Part shown: piece after piece, positions 1-47,394 of the stretch
Position numbering within the stretch: the first letter of the stretch is position 1
How the letters are laid out: each line of letters starts with the position of its first letter
NCBI GenBank assembly: GCA_007134025.1
Contig: SLLR01000003.1
Location: 1 to 58,742, forward strand
Reading direction: 5' to 3'
Origin: Desulfuromonadaceae bacterium
GTDB taxonomy: Bacteria > Desulfobacterota > Desulfuromonadia > Desulfuromonadales > Syntrophotaleaceae
DNA: 58,742 bases
Program-made: the position numbers and the translations under genes
The notes under the pieces: generated by a model
Seen by the model: only the letters and a program-made list of their open reading frames with translations
The model's database searches: none
What the model was told of the DNA's origin: nothing

Positions 1-759
1 TTGATAAAGGGTCTGATCAAGGGCGCCTTTCCGGCCGGCCAGATCCTGGTGGCCGAGCCCCTGAAAAGTCGCCGACTGCAACTGGCCGAACGTTACGGTA
101 TCGACACCAGGGAGACCGCGGCGGAGGTGGTGCCGGCATCTCAGGTCGTGGTGCTGGCGGTTAAACCGCAGGTTGTGTTCTCCGTTATGCCTGAAATTGC
201 CAGGGTTTTCAAATCGGAGGCGCTGCTGGTTTCGATTGCTGCCGGAATCTGCAGCCTGACTCTGGAGGGCTTCTTTGCCGAGGGCGCACGGTTGGTCCGG
301 GCGATGCCTAACACGCCGGCACTGGTCGGCGCCGGAGCGACGGCGATTTGTCGGGGAAGTCGAGCGGTCGAGGAGGATATGCAGACGGCCCGTCACCTGT
401 TTGAAACGGTGGGCATGGTGCGGGTGGTCGACGAAGGCCAGATGGACGCGGTCACCGGCCTGTCTGGTTCGGGCCCGGCTTATGTGTATACCGTGATTGA
501 AGCCATGGCTGCAGGGGGCGTACAGCAGGGCCTGCCTATGGATGTGGCTCTGGCTCTGGCGGCCCAGACCGTGGCCGGAGCGGCCCGACTGGTTCTGGAA
601 GGAGGCGAGCATCCGGCGCAGCTGCGGGACAAAGTCTGCTCCCCCGGGGGCACCACCATCGCGGCGGTCAAGGCTCTGGAAGAGAAGGGCCTGCGGGCTG
701 CGCTCATGGAGGCTGTGGCCCGGGCGGCGCAGCGCTCCGCGGAGTTGGGCAATAAATGA
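1..759 (+). CDS. proC: Pyrroline-5-carboxylate reductase, 5'-truncated by the window edge
   Basis: Last step of proline synthesis: NAD(P)H reduction of 1-pyrroline-5-carboxylate to proline in the cytoplasm. The visible 252 residues begin at a point matching the first helix of the family (IKGLIKG), so the N-terminal GxGxM nucleotide-binding loop and the true start lie upstream of base 1. The family signature is present: VRAMPNTPALVGAGATA, the substrate-binding TGLSGSGPAYVY, and the C-terminal LRDKVCSPGGTTIAA. The stop TGA is at 757-759. The TTG at base 1 should not be taken as the start. The aldehyde dehydrogenase gene follows after 59 bases and may be cotranscribed. Identification is secure; only the 5' end is missing. 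Confidence 0.95.
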   Translation: MIKGLIKGAFPAGQILVAEPLKSRRLQLAERYGIDTRETAAEVVPASQVVVLAVKPQVVFSVMPEIARVFKSEALLVSIAAGICSLTLEGFFAEGARLVRAMPNTPALVGAGATAICRGSRAVEEDMQTARHLFETVGMVRVVDEGQMDAVTGLSGSGPAYVYTVIEAMAAGGVQQGLPMDVALALAAQTVAGAARLVLEGGEHPAQLRDKVCSPGGTTIAAVKALEEKGLRAALMEAVARAAQRSAELGNK

Positions 760-818: not shown

Positions 819-2243
819 ATGGTTGTTCGGGACAATTTGTATATCGATGGACAGTGGGTTTCTGCCAGGGGGCGGGAAACGCTGCAGGTGGTCAATCCGG
901 CCACAGAAGAAGTTATCGCTACGGTACCGGCCGGTACCGTGCAGGATGCTGCCGCCGCGGTCTGCGCGGCGCGGGCGGCTTTTGCCGGCTGGGCGGCGAC
1001 TCCAATAGAGGAGCGTGCTTCCTGGCTTAAAAAGCTGGCGGAAGGTTTGCGGGCGCGAGCCGAGGAACTGGCCAACATCATTACCGCCGAACTTGGCATG
1101 CCGCTGGACTTTTCCCGGTCTATTCAGATCGCCATGCCTCTCGATATTATAGAAGGCTTTGCCGATATGGTAGACTGCTTTCAAGACGAGCACATCGGCA
1201 ACGCTCTGGTGGTGCGGGAACCGGTCGGCGTGGTGGCCTGTATCACCCCCTGGAACTACCCACTTCTACAGGTCGTACTCAAGGTTGCGCCGGCCCTTCT
1301 GGCCGGTTGTACGGTAATCCTCAAGCCCAGTGAAATAACCCCCCTTGACGCCTTTCTGCTGGCCGATGTCGCGACCCAGGTCGGATTGCCGGCCGGGGTG
1401 TTCAATCTGGTCAGCGGCACCGGTGAAGAAGTCGGGGAATGTCTGGCGGGGCATCCCGAGGTTGACATGATCTCCTTTACCGGCTCGACTCGCGCCGGTC
1501 GGCGGGTGTCGGAACTGGCGGCGGCCACTGTTAAGCGTGTCGCCCTGGAACTGGGGGGCAAATCTCCGGCCCTGGTGCTGGATGACGCAAATCTCGCTGC
1601 GGCGATAGAATCAACCCTTGAAAGCTGTTTCATCAATTCCGGCCAGACCTGCGACGCCATGACCAGGCTGCTGGTCCCGGAGACGCTCTACGAGCGGGCG
1701 GTGGCCCTGGCAATAAAAGGGGCAAGTAAATTTTCCGTCGGCGATCCCATGGGGGGCGAAGCCAAGCTGGGACCTCTGGTTTCGGCCCGTCAGTTGCGGC
1801 GGGTCAGAGACTATATTCAAAAAGGCATCGAGGAAGGTGCGCAACTGTTGTGCGGCGGCGTCGGGCCGCCGGCCGGGCTGGAGCGGGGTTACTATGTGTC
1901 GCCGACGGTTTTCGGCCGGGTGACGCCTGAGATGATCATTGCCCGCGAGGAGGTCTTCGGACCGGTATTGTCAATTATTACTTATCGGGACGAAGAGGAA
2001 GCGGTTCGCATCGCCAACGAAACCGATTACGGTCTGGCGGCCGCAGTCTGGTCGGCTGATGAACAGCGTGCGCTGGCTGTGGCCCTTCGGTTACGGGCCG
2101 GACAGGTCGCGGTCAACGGCGGGCCGGATAATCCGCTGGCGCCTTTTGGCGGCTATAAGCAGTCGGGCAACGGGCGAGAGATGGGCCGTTACGGACTGGA
2201 GGAGTTTCTCGAGGTCAAAGCAATTCGAATGCCGGAAAAGTGA
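819..2243 (+). CDS. NAD(P)-dependent aldehyde dehydrogenase family protein
   Basis: Oxidises an aldehyde to the acid with NAD(P)+; the substrate cannot be read from sequence. The ATG at 819 has an AAGGAG ribosome site eight bases upstream, and 474 residues is the usual family length. Motifs in order are the Rossmann segment ITPWNYPL near residue 142, [11 protein letters not shown], the general base Glu244 in LELGGKSP, the nucleophile Cys278 in [17 protein letters not shown], and the C-terminal [14 protein letters not shown]. No terminator is visible before the conserved leader element at 2271, so the next operon may have its own control. Proximity to proC could suggest a proline-related aldehyde, but the protein is not the long glutamate-semialdehyde dehydrogenase type and I do not assign that role. 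Confidence 0.93.
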
Positions 2244-2270: not shown

Positions 2271-2393
2271 GCGACCCGATGTACGCCTCCGCGCAAGGCC
2301 TTGATTCCCTTGCCACAAGAAAAAACTGCTCGTTTCCCAGAGGAAAACTGCGCTGTATACATCCGAAGTTTTTGGATAGATACTACCTGGGAC
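2271..2393 (+). promoter_or_regulatory. Conserved structured leader element, copy B (upstream of etfBA operon)
   Basis: This non-coding stretch closely matches the minus-strand stretch at about 9570-9454. Shared blocks include CCGATGTACGCCTC, CAAGG, CTTGATT, CCACAA, TGCTCGTTTCCC, GGAAAAC and GCGCTGTAT; I count roughly fifteen substitutions in about 100 aligned bases. Two hairpins are drawn: GTTTCC/GGAAAAC near 2332-2347, whose loop is CAGA here and CTTC in the other copy, and ATCCGAA-GTT-TTTGGAT at 2361-2377. The second keeps the GTT loop and shows compensatory pair changes against the other copy. Here alone GATGTA (2279-2284) can also pair with TACATC (2358-2363). The element ends about 47 bases before etfB. 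It is inferred to be a cis-acting RNA; function is unknown. Confidence 0.6.
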
Positions 2394-2440: not shown

Positions 2441-3238
2441 ATGCATATCGTTGTCTGCCTCAAACAGGTTCCCGATACCGCCAATGTCCGGATTAATCCG
2501 GAAACCAACACCCTCATGCGGGAAGGGGTGGAAAGTATCACCAACCCGTTCGACGAATACGCACTCGAGCAAGCCTTGCGTCTCAAGAACTCCCATGGTG
2601 CAAAGGTGACCACGTTGACCATGGGGCCGCCGCAGGCGGAAGTGGTTTTGCGCGAGGCCATTGCTCGCGGGGCCGACCAAGGTTTCCTCATCAGTGACCG
2701 CGCCTTTGCCGGCGCCGATACCTGGGCCACTTCCTACGTGATCTCTCGAGCTATCAAGAAGCTCAATCCCGCTGTGGACATGGTGTTCTTTGGCAAGCAG
2801 GCTATCGACGGGGAAACTGCGCAAGTGGGTCCCGGCGTCTCCGAGTTTCTTAATTACAAGCTCGTCACCTACGCCCGTTCGATCACTGTAGGTGCCGACG
2901 GTAGGTTCACTGCGGAAACTCTCATGGACGAAGGCATGGAGGTGGTCGAGGGTCCGCTCCCTGTGGTTGTCACAGTGCTAAGGGATGGCCCGCTGCCACG
3001 CTACGCTACTCTGGCCGGTTGGATGCGCGCCCGCCATGCTAAAATCCCGGTATGGGGTGTCACCGGGCTCGGGGTCGTGCCCGAGCTTTGCGGGCTCAAG
3101 GGATCTCCCACCCGTGTGATGAAAATTTTTGTACCACCCGGGAAAACTGGCGGTATCCGCATGGATGGTCGCGAAATGCCCTCGCTGGCCGTGGAAGCCA
3201 TTCTGAAGATCCTCCGCGATAAAGGGGTCTCCAAATGA
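2441..3238 (+). CDS. etfB: Electron transfer flavoprotein, beta subunit
   Basis: Small subunit of the soluble ETF heterodimer, which carries electrons from acyl-CoA-type dehydrogenases to a quinone reductase. It has 265 residues, typical for the family. It starts MHIVVCLKQVPDT and contains the adenine-nucleotide-binding NPFDEYALEQALRLK, VVFFGKQAIDGETAQVGP and a conserved LPVVVTVLRDGPLPRY. The TGA stop overlaps the ATG of etfA by four bases, so the two subunits are translationally coupled. The start ATG at 2441 has only a modest purine-rich site upstream (AAAGG/AGAGAAG). The conserved leader element lies just before it. Sequence alone does not tell me whether this ETF is bifurcating. Confidence 0.95.
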   Translation: MHIVVCLKQVPDTANVRINPETNTLMREGVESITNPFDEYALEQALRLKNSHGAKVTTLTMGPPQAEVVLREAIARGADQGFLISDRAFAGADTWATSYVISRAIKKLNPAVDMVFFGKQAIDGETAQVGPGVSEFLNYKLVTYARSITVGADGRFTAETLMDEGMEVVEGPLPVVVTVLRDGPLPRYATLAGWMRARHAKIPVWGVTGLGVVPELCGLKGSPTRVMKIFVPPGKTGGIRMDGREMPSLAVEAILKILRDKGVSK

Positions 3239-4362: not shown

Positions 4363-6011
4363 ACACACCATCCAGTCCACCGCAAGCGTCTCCGTTGAAC
4401 GTCGACATCCTGTGTGTCGGTGCGGGTGTCGCATCCCTCTCCACGGCCCTCGCTCTGTTGCGTTGCCATAAAAAAACCGGCGGTGGGAAACCCCCACCCC
4501 GCGTCGTCGTACTTGAAAAATCCCGCTCCATCGGCAACCATGTGCTGTCCGGCGCAGTGATTGACCCTGCCGCCTTTGAGGGTCTGCTGAACGAAGAGGA
4601 AATCCGTCGCCTGCCCGTGGAAGCCCACGTCACCCGCGAGGCGTTCCGTTTTCTCGCCGGTGCCCGGGTTTCGCTGCCCATTCCCTGGGTGCCATCCATG
4701 ATGCGCGCCCACGGGTTCCCCATCGGGTCGCTTAGCAGAATAACCCGTTACCTTGCGATGCTTTGCGAGGCCGAGGGAGCCGAAATTTACTGCGGTTTCG
4801 CCGTCACCGAATGGCTGGAGGATGAAACCGGCCGCATCATCGGCGCTCGCACCGGCCCTCGCGGTATGAACCGCTCCGGCCAGCCGAAATCCAACTACGC
4901 TCCGTCCGAGGAAATTCGCGCCCGTGCCATCGTGCTGGGCGAAGGTGCCTGCGGTTATCTGGCCGAAAGGCTCATCGCCAGTCACGGCATGGCCGCCTGC
5001 CGACCTCAGACTTACGCCCTTGGCGTCAAAGAACTTGTAGAAATCCCGAAAAACGAAGCCCGGCGCGGAGAAATCCTCCATACCTTCGGATACCCGGCCG
5101 CCACCGGCGACTACGGCGGCGGATTTGTCTACCACATATCCGCCACCGAGGTGATGGTCGGTTATGTCTATGGCCTGGACTATTCTCGACCGGAAACGGA
5201 CATCCACGCGCTTTTTCGCCGCTACAAGGCGCACCCGGCCATCGCCTCGCATATGGCCGGAGGCAAGGTCGTGGCCTACGGCGCCAAGGCAATTCCGGAA
5301 GGTGGGTTGTTTTCCGTGCCCAATCTGGTCACCGATGGCGCTCTTGTCGTCGGAGACTCCGGAGGTCTGCTCGACAGCCTGCGTATCAAGGGGATTCACA
5401 TGGCCATGCAGTCCGGACGCCTTGCCGGTGAAACCCTCGCCGCCGCATGGCGGGCCGGCGACTTCGGTGTTGCCCGTCTCGCCGCCTACGAGCGTGCCCT
5501 GCGCGACTCTCCGGTCTGGCGCCAACTTCAGCGCGTACGCAACGTGCGCGCCTCCTTCTCAAAACATATGGCCCTGGGCGTGGCTGCCGTCGGCTGCGCC
5601 TGGCTCACTCGCGGGATTCTACCCTGGTGGAAGGTGTCCATGGAACCGGACCCGTTAACGCTTCGACCGGCTCGCAGAGGGGGCGCCTCGCCCTTTGCGA
5701 ATCTCGAAGTTTCGCTGGTCTCGCCGGACCGTCTCACGGATGTGTTTCTGTCCGGCACCATCCACGAAGAGGACCAACCCTGTCACCTCCTGATTCTGGA
5801 CCGGGAAAAATGCGCCGAGTGCATCACCCGGTATGGCGCTCCCTGCCAGCACTTCTGTCCGGCGGAAGTCTACCGCCTCGAAGAAGGCCAGATCCGAGCG
5901 GACTTCTCCAATTGCGTCCACTGCAAAACATGCCAGGTCAAAGATCCCTACGCCAACATTCGCTGGACCCCGCCCACCGGCGGCGATGGACCGCGCTACA
6001 CCCGCTTGTGA
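4359..6011 (+). CDS. ETF:quinone oxidoreductase (FAD and 4Fe-4S protein)
   Basis: Membrane-associated enzyme that takes electrons from reduced ETF into the quinone pool. It is 550 residues, matching the family. The N-terminal FAD-binding VGAGVASLSTALAL has Ser in place of the last Gly of the usual GxGxxG. VVLEKSRSIGNHVLSGAVID, the FAD-contacting GDSGGLLDSLRIKGIHMAM and the C-terminal ferredoxin-like module are characteristic. In that module CPAEVYRLEE and CVHCKTCQVKDPYANIRW supply the cluster cysteines, and there is an extra CxxC (CAEC) just ahead. It is the last gene of the three-gene operon. It implies that an acyl-CoA or similar dehydrogenase elsewhere feeds the menaquinone pool through this ETF. 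Confidence 0.93.
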   Translation: MNTPSSPPQASPLNVDILCVGAGVASLSTALALLRCHKKTGGGKPPPRVVVLEKSRSIGNHVLSGAVIDPAAFEGLLNEEEIRRLPVEAHVTREAFRFLAGARVSLPIPWVPSMMRAHGFPIGSLSRITRYLAMLCEAEGAEIYCGFAVTEWLEDETGRIIGARTGPRGMNRSGQPKSNYAPSEEIRARAIVLGEGACGYLAERLIASHGMAACRPQTYALGVKELVEIPKNEARRGEILHTFGYPAATGDYGGGFVYHISATEVMVGYVYGLDYSRPETDIHALFRRYKAHPAIASHMAGGKVVAYGAKAIPEGGLFSVPNLVTDGALVVGDSGGLLDSLRIKGIHMAMQSGRLAGETLAAAWRAGDFGVARLAAYERALRDSPVWRQLQRVRNVRASFSKHMALGVAAVGCAWLTRGILPWWKVSMEPDPLTLRPARRGGASPFANLEVSLVSPDRLTDVFLSGTIHEEDQPCHLLILDREKCAECITRYGAPCQHFCPAEVYRLEEGQIRADFSNCVHCKTCQVKDPYANIRWTPPTGGDGPRYTRL

Positions 6012-8060: not shown

Positions 8061-9449
8061 TCAGGCTCCGAAGAGGGACAACAGCCAGGCCACGAGGCCG
8101 GTTTCTTCGAGCTTGAAGTAAAGAATAACCGCTACTGCCAGAGGCGCCACATAGCGAATCAAAAAATGCCAGACTGGATAGACGGGACCGGCGCCACCGG
8201 AGAGAAGTTCGGCCTTTTCCTCCGAGCCCTTCCACATCCAGCCGACATACAGGGCCACCAGCAGGCCGCCGACGGGCAGCAGATAGTTGGAGGCAATGAG
8301 ATCCAGCGAATCGAAAAAATTGAGGGAGCCGATGATTTGCCAGTCGGCAAGCAGGTTGTAGGAAAGGGCCGTGGGAATGCCCACCAGAAAGGCCAACCCG
8401 GCAAAGAAACCGCTGGCTCGTTTGCGCCCCCAACCCTTTTCGTCGATCAGATAGGCGACCTGGGCTTCCAGCAGGGAGATGGCGCTGGTCAGGGCCGCAA
8501 AGGCCAGCAGCAAGAAAAATACAATGGCCAGCAGGTAGCCTCCGGGCAGCCGGGAAAAAACCACCGGGATGGTCTGAAAAATCAGACCGGGGCCGGCTGC
8601 GGGTTCGAGACCCACCGCGAAAACAATGGGAAAGATGGCCAGGCCGGCCATCAGGGCGATGCCGGTATCCAGAAGAGCCACCCGCAGCCCTGCTGAAAAC
8701 AGGTTTTCTTCGCGGCTCAGGTAGGAACCGTAGGTGATCATGGCCGCCATACCCAGAGAAAGGCTGAAGAAGGCGTGCCCCAGTGCTTCGAGCACCGATG
8801 CGGGAGTCAGTCGGGCGAAATCGGGCCGGAACATGAAAATCAGACCTTCGCGGGCCCCATCGCTGAGCATGCCGTTAACGAACAGCAGCACCAGCAAAAA
8901 AAGCAACAGGGGCATAAGGATCTTGCTCCAGCGTTCGATGCCTTTTTGAACCCCGCCGATGACGATGGCCAGGCACAGCAGCATGAACAGTAGGTGCCAG
9001 AAAAGCTGCCGAGGCCCATCGGCAATCAGTCTGCCGAAAAGGCCCTCGACGGCTTCCGGCGATTGCCCGCTGAAGCTGCCAGCCACGGCACGGTAGATGT
9101 AATCAAGGGTCCAGCCGGCGACCACCGAGTAATAGGAGAGAATGATAAAGGCAGCGGTGACGCTGATCCAGCCGGTACAGGTCCAGAAGGATTTCCGACC
9201 TTCCAGAGCGATAAAGGCGCCGACCGCGTCACGCCGGGTATGGCGGCCGATCATCAATTCGGCCATCAGGATGGGCAGGCCGACCAGCGCAATGCAGAGC
9301 AGGTAGACGAGAACGAAAGCGCCGCCGCCGTTGAGGCCGGCGATGTAGGGGAATTTCCAGATGTTACCGAGGCCGACGGCGCTGCCGGCGGCGGCCAGCA
9401 CAAAGCCCAGCCGGGAAGCCCAAAGAGCTCGCGGTTGCTGAGAATTCAT
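8061..9449 (-). CDS. Neurotransmitter:sodium symporter (NSS/SNF) family transporter
   Basis: Inner-membrane secondary transporter of the LeuT type, using Na+ to import an amino acid or similar small solute. The start ATG at 9449 gives 462 residues and puts RLGFVLAAAGSAVGLGNIWKFPY, the TM1 signature, at about residue 13. NGGGAFVLVYL (TM2) and the TM6-8 region AFFSLSLGMAAMITYGSY follow, with about twelve hydrophobic spans in all. A longer open frame to 9659 exists, but its extra N-terminus is not family-like and would run through the conserved leader element. The substrate is not readable. gph follows 30 bases downstream. Confidence 0.92.
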   Translation of the reverse strand: MNSQQPRALWASRLGFVLAAAGSAVGLGNIWKFPYIAGLNGGGAFVLVYLLCIALVGLPILMAELMIGRHTRRDAVGAFIALEGRKSFWTCTGWISVTAAFIILSYYSVVAGWTLDYIYRAVAGSFSGQSPEAVEGLFGRLIADGPRQLFWHLLFMLLCLAIVIGGVQKGIERWSKILMPLLLFLLVLLFVNGMLSDGAREGLIFMFRPDFARLTPASVLEALGHAFFSLSLGMAAMITYGSYLSREENLFSAGLRVALLDTGIALMAGLAIFPIVFAVGLEPAAGPGLIFQTIPVVFSRLPGGYLLAIVFFLLLAFAALTSAISLLEAQVAYLIDEKGWGRKRASGFFAGLAFLVGIPTALSYNLLADWQIIGSLNFFDSLDLIASNYLLPVGGLLVALYVGWMWKGSEEKAELLSGGAGPVYPVWHFLIRYVAPLAVAVILYFKLEETGLVAWLLSLFGA

Positions 9450-9453
9450 AATG

Positions 9454-9570
9454 ATCCTAGGTTCACCATTCGGAAACTCCGAATGGATACAGCGCGGTTT
9501 TCCGAAGGGAAACGAGCATTTTTTTTGTTGTGGTAAGGAAATCAAGACCTTGTGCAGAGGCGTACATCGG
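9454..9570 (-). promoter_or_regulatory. Conserved structured leader element, copy A (upstream of NSS transporter)
   Basis: The minus-strand match of the element at 2271-2393. Its last hairpin is CCATTCGGA-GTT-TCCGAATGG (9486-9466), a perfect nine-pair stem. In the other copy the stem is ATCCGAA/TTTGGAT with the same GTT loop. At two pairs T-A is replaced by C-G and G-C by A-T, and a third changes from G-C to G-T, which is the signature of a conserved RNA fold. Further 5' a second hairpin, GTGC..GGCGTAC-CGAT-GTACGCC..GCAC (9580-9552), is specific to this copy. CCCTGGC/GCCAGGG at 9639-9610 may be the end of the yggS transcript. The element abuts the transporter's ribosome site, so the fold could control translation start. 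Confidence 0.6.
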
Positions 9571-9710
9571 TACGCCGCACATTTCCACAGGATAGAGGAA
9601 ATGGACAGCCCCTGGCTGCCCGAAGAGCGAGGGCCAGGGATGGTCCGAGTCACAAGCAAGGCCGCGAATTGACGCCGCCACGACGGAAAAGGGCTGTTTC
9701 CAGATGAAAA

Positions 9711-10397
9711 CTAGTAGCGCTCACCAAAGATGGCGGAGCCGACGCGAATCAGAGTCGCGCCCTCCTCAATGGCGACTTCAAAATCGTGACTCATGCCCAT
9801 GGAGAGTTCCCGCAGCGCGACGTTGGGAATCTTGCGCTCCCGCAACAGCGTTGCCAGTTCCCGCAAACGACGAAAATAGGGCCGAACCTGTTCCGGGTCC
9901 TCCAGGTAGGGAGGCAGCGCCATCAGGCCCCGGACTCTCAGGTTGGGCAGTTCGGCGACCTGGCGCAGCAGAGTTTCCAGTTCCTCTTCGTCGGCTCCGG
10001 CCTTGCTGGCTTCGCCACCCAGGTTCAACTGCAGAAGAATATCGGCCACCCGGTCAATTTTCCCCCATTGGCGGTCGATCTCCCTGGCCAGCGAGAGGCG
10101 GTCGACAGAGTGGATCAACTGAACCTTGCCTCGAAGGTATTTGACTTTGTTGGATTGCAGGGCGCCGATAAAGTGCCATTCCACCTTGTCGGACAACTCA
10201 TCGAATTTGGAACTGAACTCCTGGGCGTAACTTTCGCCGAAGAGAGTCTGTCCGGCTTGCAGGGCGGCTTCGATCATGGCCGCCGGTTTGGTTTTGGAGA
10301 CGGCGACCAGGCGGACATGGGCGGGATCGCGCCGGGCTCGTTGACAGGCATTGTGGACGCGCTGCTGGATGCGTTGCAGATTTTGTGAAATTGTCAT
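9711..10397 (-). CDS. YggS/PROSC family pyridoxal-phosphate homeostasis protein
   Basis: Single-domain PLP-binding TIM-barrel protein that buffers pyridoxal 5'-phosphate. The start is ATG at 10397 (MTISQNLQRIQQRV), giving 228 residues, the usual size. RLVAVSKTKP contains the PLP-lysine. Further family blocks are TLFGESYAQEF, WHFIGALQSNKVKYL, IHSVDRLSLA, QLNLGGEASKAG, VRGLMALPPY and LSMGMSHDFEVAIEEGATLIRVGSAIFG. The ATG overlaps the stop of maf by four bases, so the genes are coupled. The upstream-extended frame to 10496 lies inside maf and is rejected. Confidence 0.93.
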   Translation of the reverse strand: MTISQNLQRIQQRVHNACQRARRDPAHVRLVAVSKTKPAAMIEAALQAGQTLFGESYAQEFSSKFDELSDKVEWHFIGALQSNKVKYLRGKVQLIHSVDRLSLAREIDRQWGKIDRVADILLQLNLGGEASKAGADEEELETLLRQVAELPNLRVRGLMALPPYLEDPEQVRPYFRRLRELATLLRERKIPNVALRELSMGMSHDFEVAIEEGATLIRVGSAIFGERY

Positions 10398-21863: not shown

Positions 21864-21908
21864 AATCCAGGGCATGAAGCCATTCCATGCCGCACGCGAC
21901 GCCATCCT

Positions 21909-22014
21909 CATCTTTCCCCGTACGGGGCAGGAATTAGCACCTGGCGCTCGCGCAAAGCGAGCCGGTTGCTGTGGTTTCACAGGGCCTTACCCTCCACCAC
22001 TCTCGATAAAGATG
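21909..22014 (-). ncRNA. SAM-I (S-box) riboswitch controlling metX
   Basis: The minus strand reads CATCTTTATCGAGAGTGGTG, then GAGGG, GGCCCTGTGAAACC, CAGCAACC, a variable GC-rich hairpin, GGTGCTAATTCC and a closing AAAGATG. These are the conserved blocks of the S-box aptamer in the right order, and P1 closes CATCTTT with AAAGATG. Binding of S-adenosylmethionine stabilises the aptamer and favours the downstream terminator. metX is the only gene in reach. Identification from the consensus is very secure. Confidence 0.97.
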
Positions 22015-44540: not shown

Positions 44541-44616
44541 GGGCCTATAGCTCAGTTGGTAGAGCCACCGGCTCATAACCGGTCGGTCCCAGGTTCGAAT
44601 CCTGGTGGGCCCACCA
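44541..44616 (+). tRNA. tRNA with CAU anticodon (Met, or Ile2)
   Basis: The acceptor GGGCCTA pairs with TGGGCCC, the D-arm is GCTCAGTTGGTAGAGC, the anticodon stem ACCGG/CCGGT encloses loop CTCATAA, and the T-arm is CCAGG-TTCGAAT-CCTGG. CCA is encoded. The anticodon CAT (44573-44575) means elongator tRNA-Met or, if C34 is lysidine-modified by TilS, tRNA-Ile reading AUA. It is not the initiator type, since the acceptor 1-72 pair is a normal G-C. Elongator Met versus Ile2 cannot be settled by eye. Confidence 0.93.
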
Positions 44617-46990: not shown

Positions 46991-47394
46991 GTGGTCGGAC
47001 AAGGACAGACGATCGCTGGTCCGCCGCTGCTTCGGCGATGGTGGGCGGGAGGAAAGTCCGGGCTCCGCAGGGCGGGATGGTTCCTAACGGGAACCGGGGG
47101 TGACCCCAGGGACAGTGCCACAGAAAGCAGACCGCCTGCCCGCGCTTCGGCGAGAGCAGGTAAGGGTGAAAGGGTGAGGTAAGAGCTCACCAGGCTCGGC
47201 GGTGACGTCGAGTGCTCGGTAAACCCCATCTGGAGCAAGGCCGAATAGGGGAGCGTTTGAGGACGGCCCGTCCGAAGCTCCCGGGTTGGCTGCTTGAGAC
47301 CGTCGGCAACGGCGGCCCTAGATGAATGATCGTCGCTTCGCTTCGGGTAACTGGGGTGGAGTACAGAACCCGGCTTATGGCCTTGTCCGGCCAC
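46991..47394 (+). ncRNA. rnpB: RNase P RNA, bacterial type A
   Basis: Catalytic RNA that cuts 5' leaders from tRNA precursors. The ends pair as P1: GTGG-CGGACAAGG at 46991 with CCTTGTCCG-CCAC ending 47394. Conserved core blocks are present: GAGGAAAGTCCGGGCTCC (CR-I), CAGGGTGCCAG-like CAGTGCCACAGAAA, AGGGTGAAAGGGTG, GGTAAACCCC, and near the 3' end GATGAATGATCG and ACAGAACCCGGCTTA. About 404 bases, normal for type A. Confidence 0.97.

Follow-up and report, generated by a model that had tools for sequence, protein, structure and literature searches.

Two similar segments upstream of etfB and a sodium-dependent transporter gene are very probably copies of one mobile element with ISNCY-type ends

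Introduction

Two non-coding segments on opposite strands resemble each other in a 58,742-nucleotide stretch of contig SLLR01000003.1 from a Desulfuromonadaceae bacterium (the whole stretch analyzed here, referred to as the window). Each of them lies just upstream of a gene, one before etfB and the other before the gene of a sodium-dependent (NSS) transporter, which raises the question of whether they are a shared regulatory leader or something else. A sequence-only reading of this DNA favored the first answer, proposing a structured cis-regulatory RNA of no recognized class through which the etf and NSS genes could answer one metabolite or ion. Here we examine both segments in the context of the host genome, its relatives and the wider phylum.

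Results

The resemblance itself was readily confirmed. Positions 2276-2383 (+) and 9461-9711 (-) are homologous, with 79% identity in some 122 aligned columns (blastn E 7e-23), and each lies 5' of a gene and reads in the same direction as that gene. The first precedes etfB (2441-3238, +, start codon at 2441), an open reading frame whose match to the electron transfer flavoprotein beta model falls short of the curated cut-off, and the second precedes the NSS transporter gene (8061-9449, -, start codon at 9449; NF037979, 138.6 bits for a cut-off of 50). The earlier comparison of the two 3' hairpins was correct letter for letter: CATCCGAA-GTT-TTTGGAT in one copy against CATTCGGA-GTT-TCCGAATG in the other, with the GTT loop kept, two pairs swapped (C-G/T-A and A-T/G-C) and one G-T/G-C change. 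Rfam gave no match at either copy (gathering score and E<=10), in agreement with the claim that no known riboswitch class is involved. Elsewhere in the window, Rfam finds ordinary RNAs: a SAM riboswitch at 21905-22012 (-), RNase P RNA at 46997-47392 (+) and a tRNA gene at 44541-44613 (+).

Searches of the bacterium's own genome (2.25 Mb) revealed a dispersed family of about 30 copies, found at 24 places with the etf copy as query and at 32 with the NSS copy. Several contigs of this assembly begin or end within the repeat; contig breaks inside repeats are usual in draft assemblies. Aligned copies show sharp ends, GTTTTCATCCGGAAAC on the 5' side and GTTTCCGGATGGACAC on the 3' side, each the inverted repeat of the other. 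The element is non-coding, carries 16-bp terminal inverted repeats (TIRs) and occurs in two main lengths, 176 bp and 249 bp, while a 51-bp derivative on contig C142 is reduced to little beyond both ends and is still flanked by a TATCT duplication of its own. Taken globally, the element is present in 13 of 14 genomes of the family, with up to 80 copies, and in 59 of the 136 genomes of the order. Its interior is unusually conserved over many families, a conservation that is atypical of a purely selfish non-autonomous transposable element (MITE).

Mapped onto this element, the two window copies are in different states of preservation. The etf copy (2276-2383, +) is a 5'-truncated 3' half located in the etfB leader, matching positions 142-249 of the 249-bp form. 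It has neither the 5' TIR nor the 5' hairpin arm, and its single-sequence fold shows no family hairpin. What it keeps is the palindromic 3' end of the element, a terminal hairpin with two internal mismatches (2355-2383, +), recognized from the sequence and the family consensus and followed by the flank TACCT (2384-2388), which agrees with the TANNT target described below. This copy is a decayed 3' fragment without demonstrable function.

The NSS copy (9461-9711, -), on the other hand, is a near full-length element of the 249-bp type, with about 250 bp of homology when aligned to the element. It occupies the gap between the NSS gene and an upstream gene which, judging from sequence and neighborhood, is probably yggS. 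Its 5' TIR, GTTTTCATCTGGAAAC (9696-9711, -), departs from the TIR pattern by one mismatch, and the first G of this TIR, at 9711, completes the TAG stop codon of yggS. At the other side, the terminal hairpin GTATCCATTCGG AGTTT CCGAATGG... (9462-9490, -), identified from the sequence and the family consensus, is an inverted copy of the TIR, although the element has decayed at its very 3' end and its target duplication is no longer intact. With the etf copy truncated and the NSS copy degraded at its 3' side, neither has an intact target duplication.

The alignments also show that the 249-bp form differs from the 176-bp form by an extra hairpin of about 70 nt, found in the window at 9581-9650 (-). 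This module (GACTCGG...GGTCC/TGTCC...) appears at varying positions of the family hairpin in unrelated genomes (L241, L282, L298 and L310), and may itself be a dispersed repeat. Next to it in the NSS copy lies the conserved hairpin apex, TGTGCGGCGTA-CCGA-TGTACGCCTCtGC (9554-9581, -), detected by covariance model R1 with 23.8 bits and E 4.7e-4. Because of the 70-nt insert, the model matches the NSS copy in its apical part only; the same search of the window gave no match for the etf copy.

We inspected the flanks of 66 unique elements that retain both ends and come from the bacterium's genome or from relatives. Exact 5-bp direct repeats at a fixed distance were found in 35 of them, compared with a mean of 2.1 and a maximum of 9 in 2000 trials with the flanks shuffled among elements. 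The duplication consensus is TANNT, often TAGCT or TAACT. These duplications bear on another possible origin, in which the repeat would be a palindrome of the REP/REPIN type and would owe its movement to a RAYT (HUH) nuclease and not to a DDE insertion sequence. Such an origin would suit a palindromic, intergenic sequence of many copies whose 3' end is a hairpin. However, 5-bp target duplications are not expected from single-strand HUH transposition, and a DDE-type insertion sequence does have MITE-type ends, which together make this origin highly improbable.

That insertion sequence occurs in G003, a relative whose chromosome is nearly closed. Three identical 1683-bp elements there have MITE-type ends, are flanked by direct repeats and encode a protein of 454 aa, which reaches 483 bits with the ISNCY transposase model (NF033593, cut-off 325). 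Among the 136 genomes of the order, seven carry such a transposase above cut-off, and in all seven the representative locus presents paired MITE-type ends at a distance of 1662-1686 bp, in most cases flanked by duplications of the TANNT type; the below-cut-off homologues that we inspected have no paired MITE-type ends. We did not find an intact ISNCY gene in the window's own draft genome, and its congener holds only a remnant at a contig edge, beside a TIR. Transposase and MITE are also found apart: one family member (G001) has a 97%-identical ISNCY transposase and no detectable MITE copy, and another genome (G000) has many MITEs and no transposase detected. A derivation of the MITE by internal deletion of the insertion sequence was rejected, as only the terminal 20 bp or so match and the interiors are unrelated.

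The element is thus shorter than 500 bp, non-coding, bounded by TIRs, flanked by target duplications and accompanied by a partner with identical ends, the features that characterize a MITE. From the common ends and target, we infer that the ISNCY transposase mobilizes it in trans.

Beyond its ends, the family has a hairpin that covaries. An alignment of 36 diverse copies contains 31 pairs, 19 of them with compensatory change, and reaches a covariation score of 0.323; shuffles gave 0.116 (0 of 500 reached the observed value) and slid partners at most 0.088. With the covariance model we found matches in 68 of the 198 genomes sampled from the phylum, the weaker matches being uncertain, and six genomes searched further hold 9 to 65 copies each. 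In a pattern scan of named genomes the core appears, among the matches listed, in Geobacter, Geotalea, Oryzomonas, Pelotalea, Desulfuromusa and Desulfobacterales, as well as in a few metagenome-assembled genomes labeled as other phyla, where contamination is possible; a single viral contig has it. Many copies in Geobacter-like genomes have no transposon ends and are located inside operons, and we refer to these as the short form. Inspection by eye showed no signature sequences of integron attC sites or of sigma-54 promoters, and both candidates were dropped.

These numbers indicate that the family hairpin is under real constraint, which may act on RNA or on single-stranded DNA. The previously proposed selection on RNA structure is supported as selection on secondary structure, with strong compensatory change in further copies. 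The covariance search that had been suggested as a check returned what was anticipated in part, that is, many matches, more covariation and no Rfam match, but beside unrelated genes.

If the element were a leader, its copies should read in the direction of the gene that follows. In G003, relative to the gene at their 3' side, 20 MITE copies are sense and 19 antisense; MITE-type copies from named genomes are 21:18 among the matches listed; and the 14:6 ratio of the own genome is not significant. All these counts depend on a simple hexamer-based gene caller, which is crude. The copies adjoin unrelated genes in either orientation, and such an absence of preference does not fit a leader role.

The yggS-NSS gap measures 7 bp in a congener (G002) and contains the element of about 250 bp in the window, and all 13 homologous loci in the comparison lack an element at this site: the NSS copy is, as far as sequence comparison goes, a lineage-specific insertion. 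The congener also has no element upstream of etfB, yet it keeps the last 45 nt or so before the start codon. In another genus (G013, locus L186), an independent 3'-end fragment of the element lies 12-100 nt upstream of etfB, which we take as a coincidence given the tens of copies per genome.

This evidence bears on the proposed new riboswitch class, a metabolite- or ion-sensing leader common to the etf operon and the NSS transporter. The sense placement 5' of both genes, the true covariation of the family hairpin, the absence of an Rfam match and the fragment near etfB in one other relative all speak for it. They are opposed by the mobile-element anatomy, the empty sites in relatives, the missing half of the hairpin in the etf copy, the unoriented MITE copies beside unrelated genes and the short-form copies in unrelated operons. 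Neither conservation at orthologous loci nor a location beside functionally related genes, as expected of a riboswitch, was found. We therefore give very little credence to a riboswitch. The common leader proposed for both genes gives way to a dispersed MITE with TIRs, target duplications, a transposase partner, empty sites and unoriented copies, and the joint response of the etf and NSS genes to one metabolite or ion loses its support: MITE copies adjoin unrelated genes and the etf copy has no 5' hairpin arm. Among the outcomes that the sequence-only reading had named as contrary to it, a mobile repeat dispersed without regard to genes is what we observe; an Rfam hit and a lack of covariation are not.

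The short form presents a different distribution. Its copies start mostly 6-15 nt 3' of the stop codon of the upstream gene. They are sense with the upstream gene in 30 of 36 cases in Geobacter-like genomes (p 7e-5) and with the downstream gene in 30 of 37 cases in the named set, among the matches listed (p 2e-4), the two samples being partly overlapping. The outer arms vary between copies while remaining complementary within each one, with 6.2 bp of pairing within a copy compared to 4.0 bp across copies. The hosts are unrelated operons, with copies at nifH-nifD, thiG-thiE/H, trpG-trpD and E2-E3 dehydrogenase genes (by Pfam), and we found no common pathway near the short-form copies, whose neighbors include nif, thi, car, trp, E2/E3 dehydrogenase, nad and others.

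Two loci illustrate this arrangement. One (L414, G198:C1:203000-216000) has four short-form copies, with core matches at 4981, 6309, 8250 and 10525 (-); all are in sense, three or four of them sit between successive same-strand genes of one cluster, and each has its own complementary outer arms. In Pelotalea chapellei (L245), short-form hairpins are located at 293-458 (-), in the gap between nifH and the next gene, for nitrogenase component 1, and at 1897-2062 (-), after that gene.

The above distribution leads to a second reading, in which the hairpin would be a functional intercistronic RNA, acting for instance in transcript processing or stability, with the MITE as its mobilized form or the short form as a domesticated MITE. 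The compensatory change in the 36 diverse copies, the short-form sense bias in both samples, the starts just 3' of stop codons and the arms complementary within each copy are consistent with it, and so is the copy reported at one and the same place in G. metallireducens and G. sulfurreducens (PMC2700814). However, the sense bias could come from selection against harmful insertions alone, the covariation could reflect a DNA-level constraint or imperfect-palindrome repair, and the support from orientation involves crude gene calls and overlapping samples. On balance, we consider this function a tentative possibility. For the two window copies, it is no rival to the MITE explanation.

Discussion

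Both window stretches are, with high probability, copies of one MITE, presumably moved by an ISNCY-type transposase. Mechanistically, the transposase would act in trans on the MITE ends and move an element whose interior holds a conserved, imperfect hairpin some 100-120 nt long. The preferred target would be close to TAGNT or TAANT, and because it resembles these motifs insertion would be frequent at stop codons, placing the element in intergenic gaps. In the window, the NSS copy adds about 250 bp between yggS and the NSS gene, which may alter the spacing or processing of the transcript.

At the scale of the phylum, one could speculate about a cis-acting RNA hairpin in operons that was taken up by, or derived from, an ISNCY-mobilized MITE and later fixed between genes, a scenario that we regard as rather doubtful at present. 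If true, it would be a case of a functional RNA motif spreading as a transposable element before its fixation. The covariance model and the numerous natural copies, some of them in series within one operon, make a possible role of the dispersed hairpins in operon expression directly testable. The ISNCY partnership, the probable link to a family reported in 2009, the spread of the family and its covariation are new; they remove a false riboswitch lead, explain a repeat that breaks the assemblies of these genomes, and would connect the 2009 Geobacter family with a mobile element whose transposase type is named.

Several known systems resemble the element. ISNCY insertion sequences (NF033593, an NCBIfam model) share with it the TIRs and the 5-bp TANNT duplications, but the MITE lacks a transposase gene, and its interior is unrelated to theirs. 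ERIC elements of enterobacteria are also imperfect palindromes of about 120 nt, dispersed, intergenic and long-lived across many genera (general knowledge and PMC10969869); this likeness is one of description, ERIC belongs to another host group, and ISNCY-type ends and a partner were found for the window element. The Chunjie MITE of Geobacter uraniireducens, as described in a review, has 178-235 bp and dozens of intergenic copies, one of them inside an operon (PMC10969869). It is similar in size and copy number and could conceivably be the same element, and a copy of our element in Geotalea toluenoxydans (L257) has about Chunjie's length.

A further counterpart is an uncharacterized "short RNA" family of G. 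metallireducens, intergenic and dispersed, for which the 2009 report names no transposon link or function (PMC2700814). Its central palindrome is GRCGTAGCGCTGCTACGCC, the family also occurs in further Geobacter and in Desulfotalea (legend of Additional file 4 in PMC2700814), and one copy lies in the dapAB-dapL operon of G. metallireducens with a counterpart at the same place in G. sulfurreducens (PMC2700814). The full window copy keeps the stem (GGCGTAC-CGAT-GTACGCC) with CCGATG in place of GCGCTG as apical loop and, unlike the 2009 family as described, the window form has IS-like ends, target duplications and no preferred orientation. The palindrome is found exactly or nearly so in short-form copies, for example L249 and L245, and the transposon-end-free Geobacter form probably corresponds to the 2009 family.
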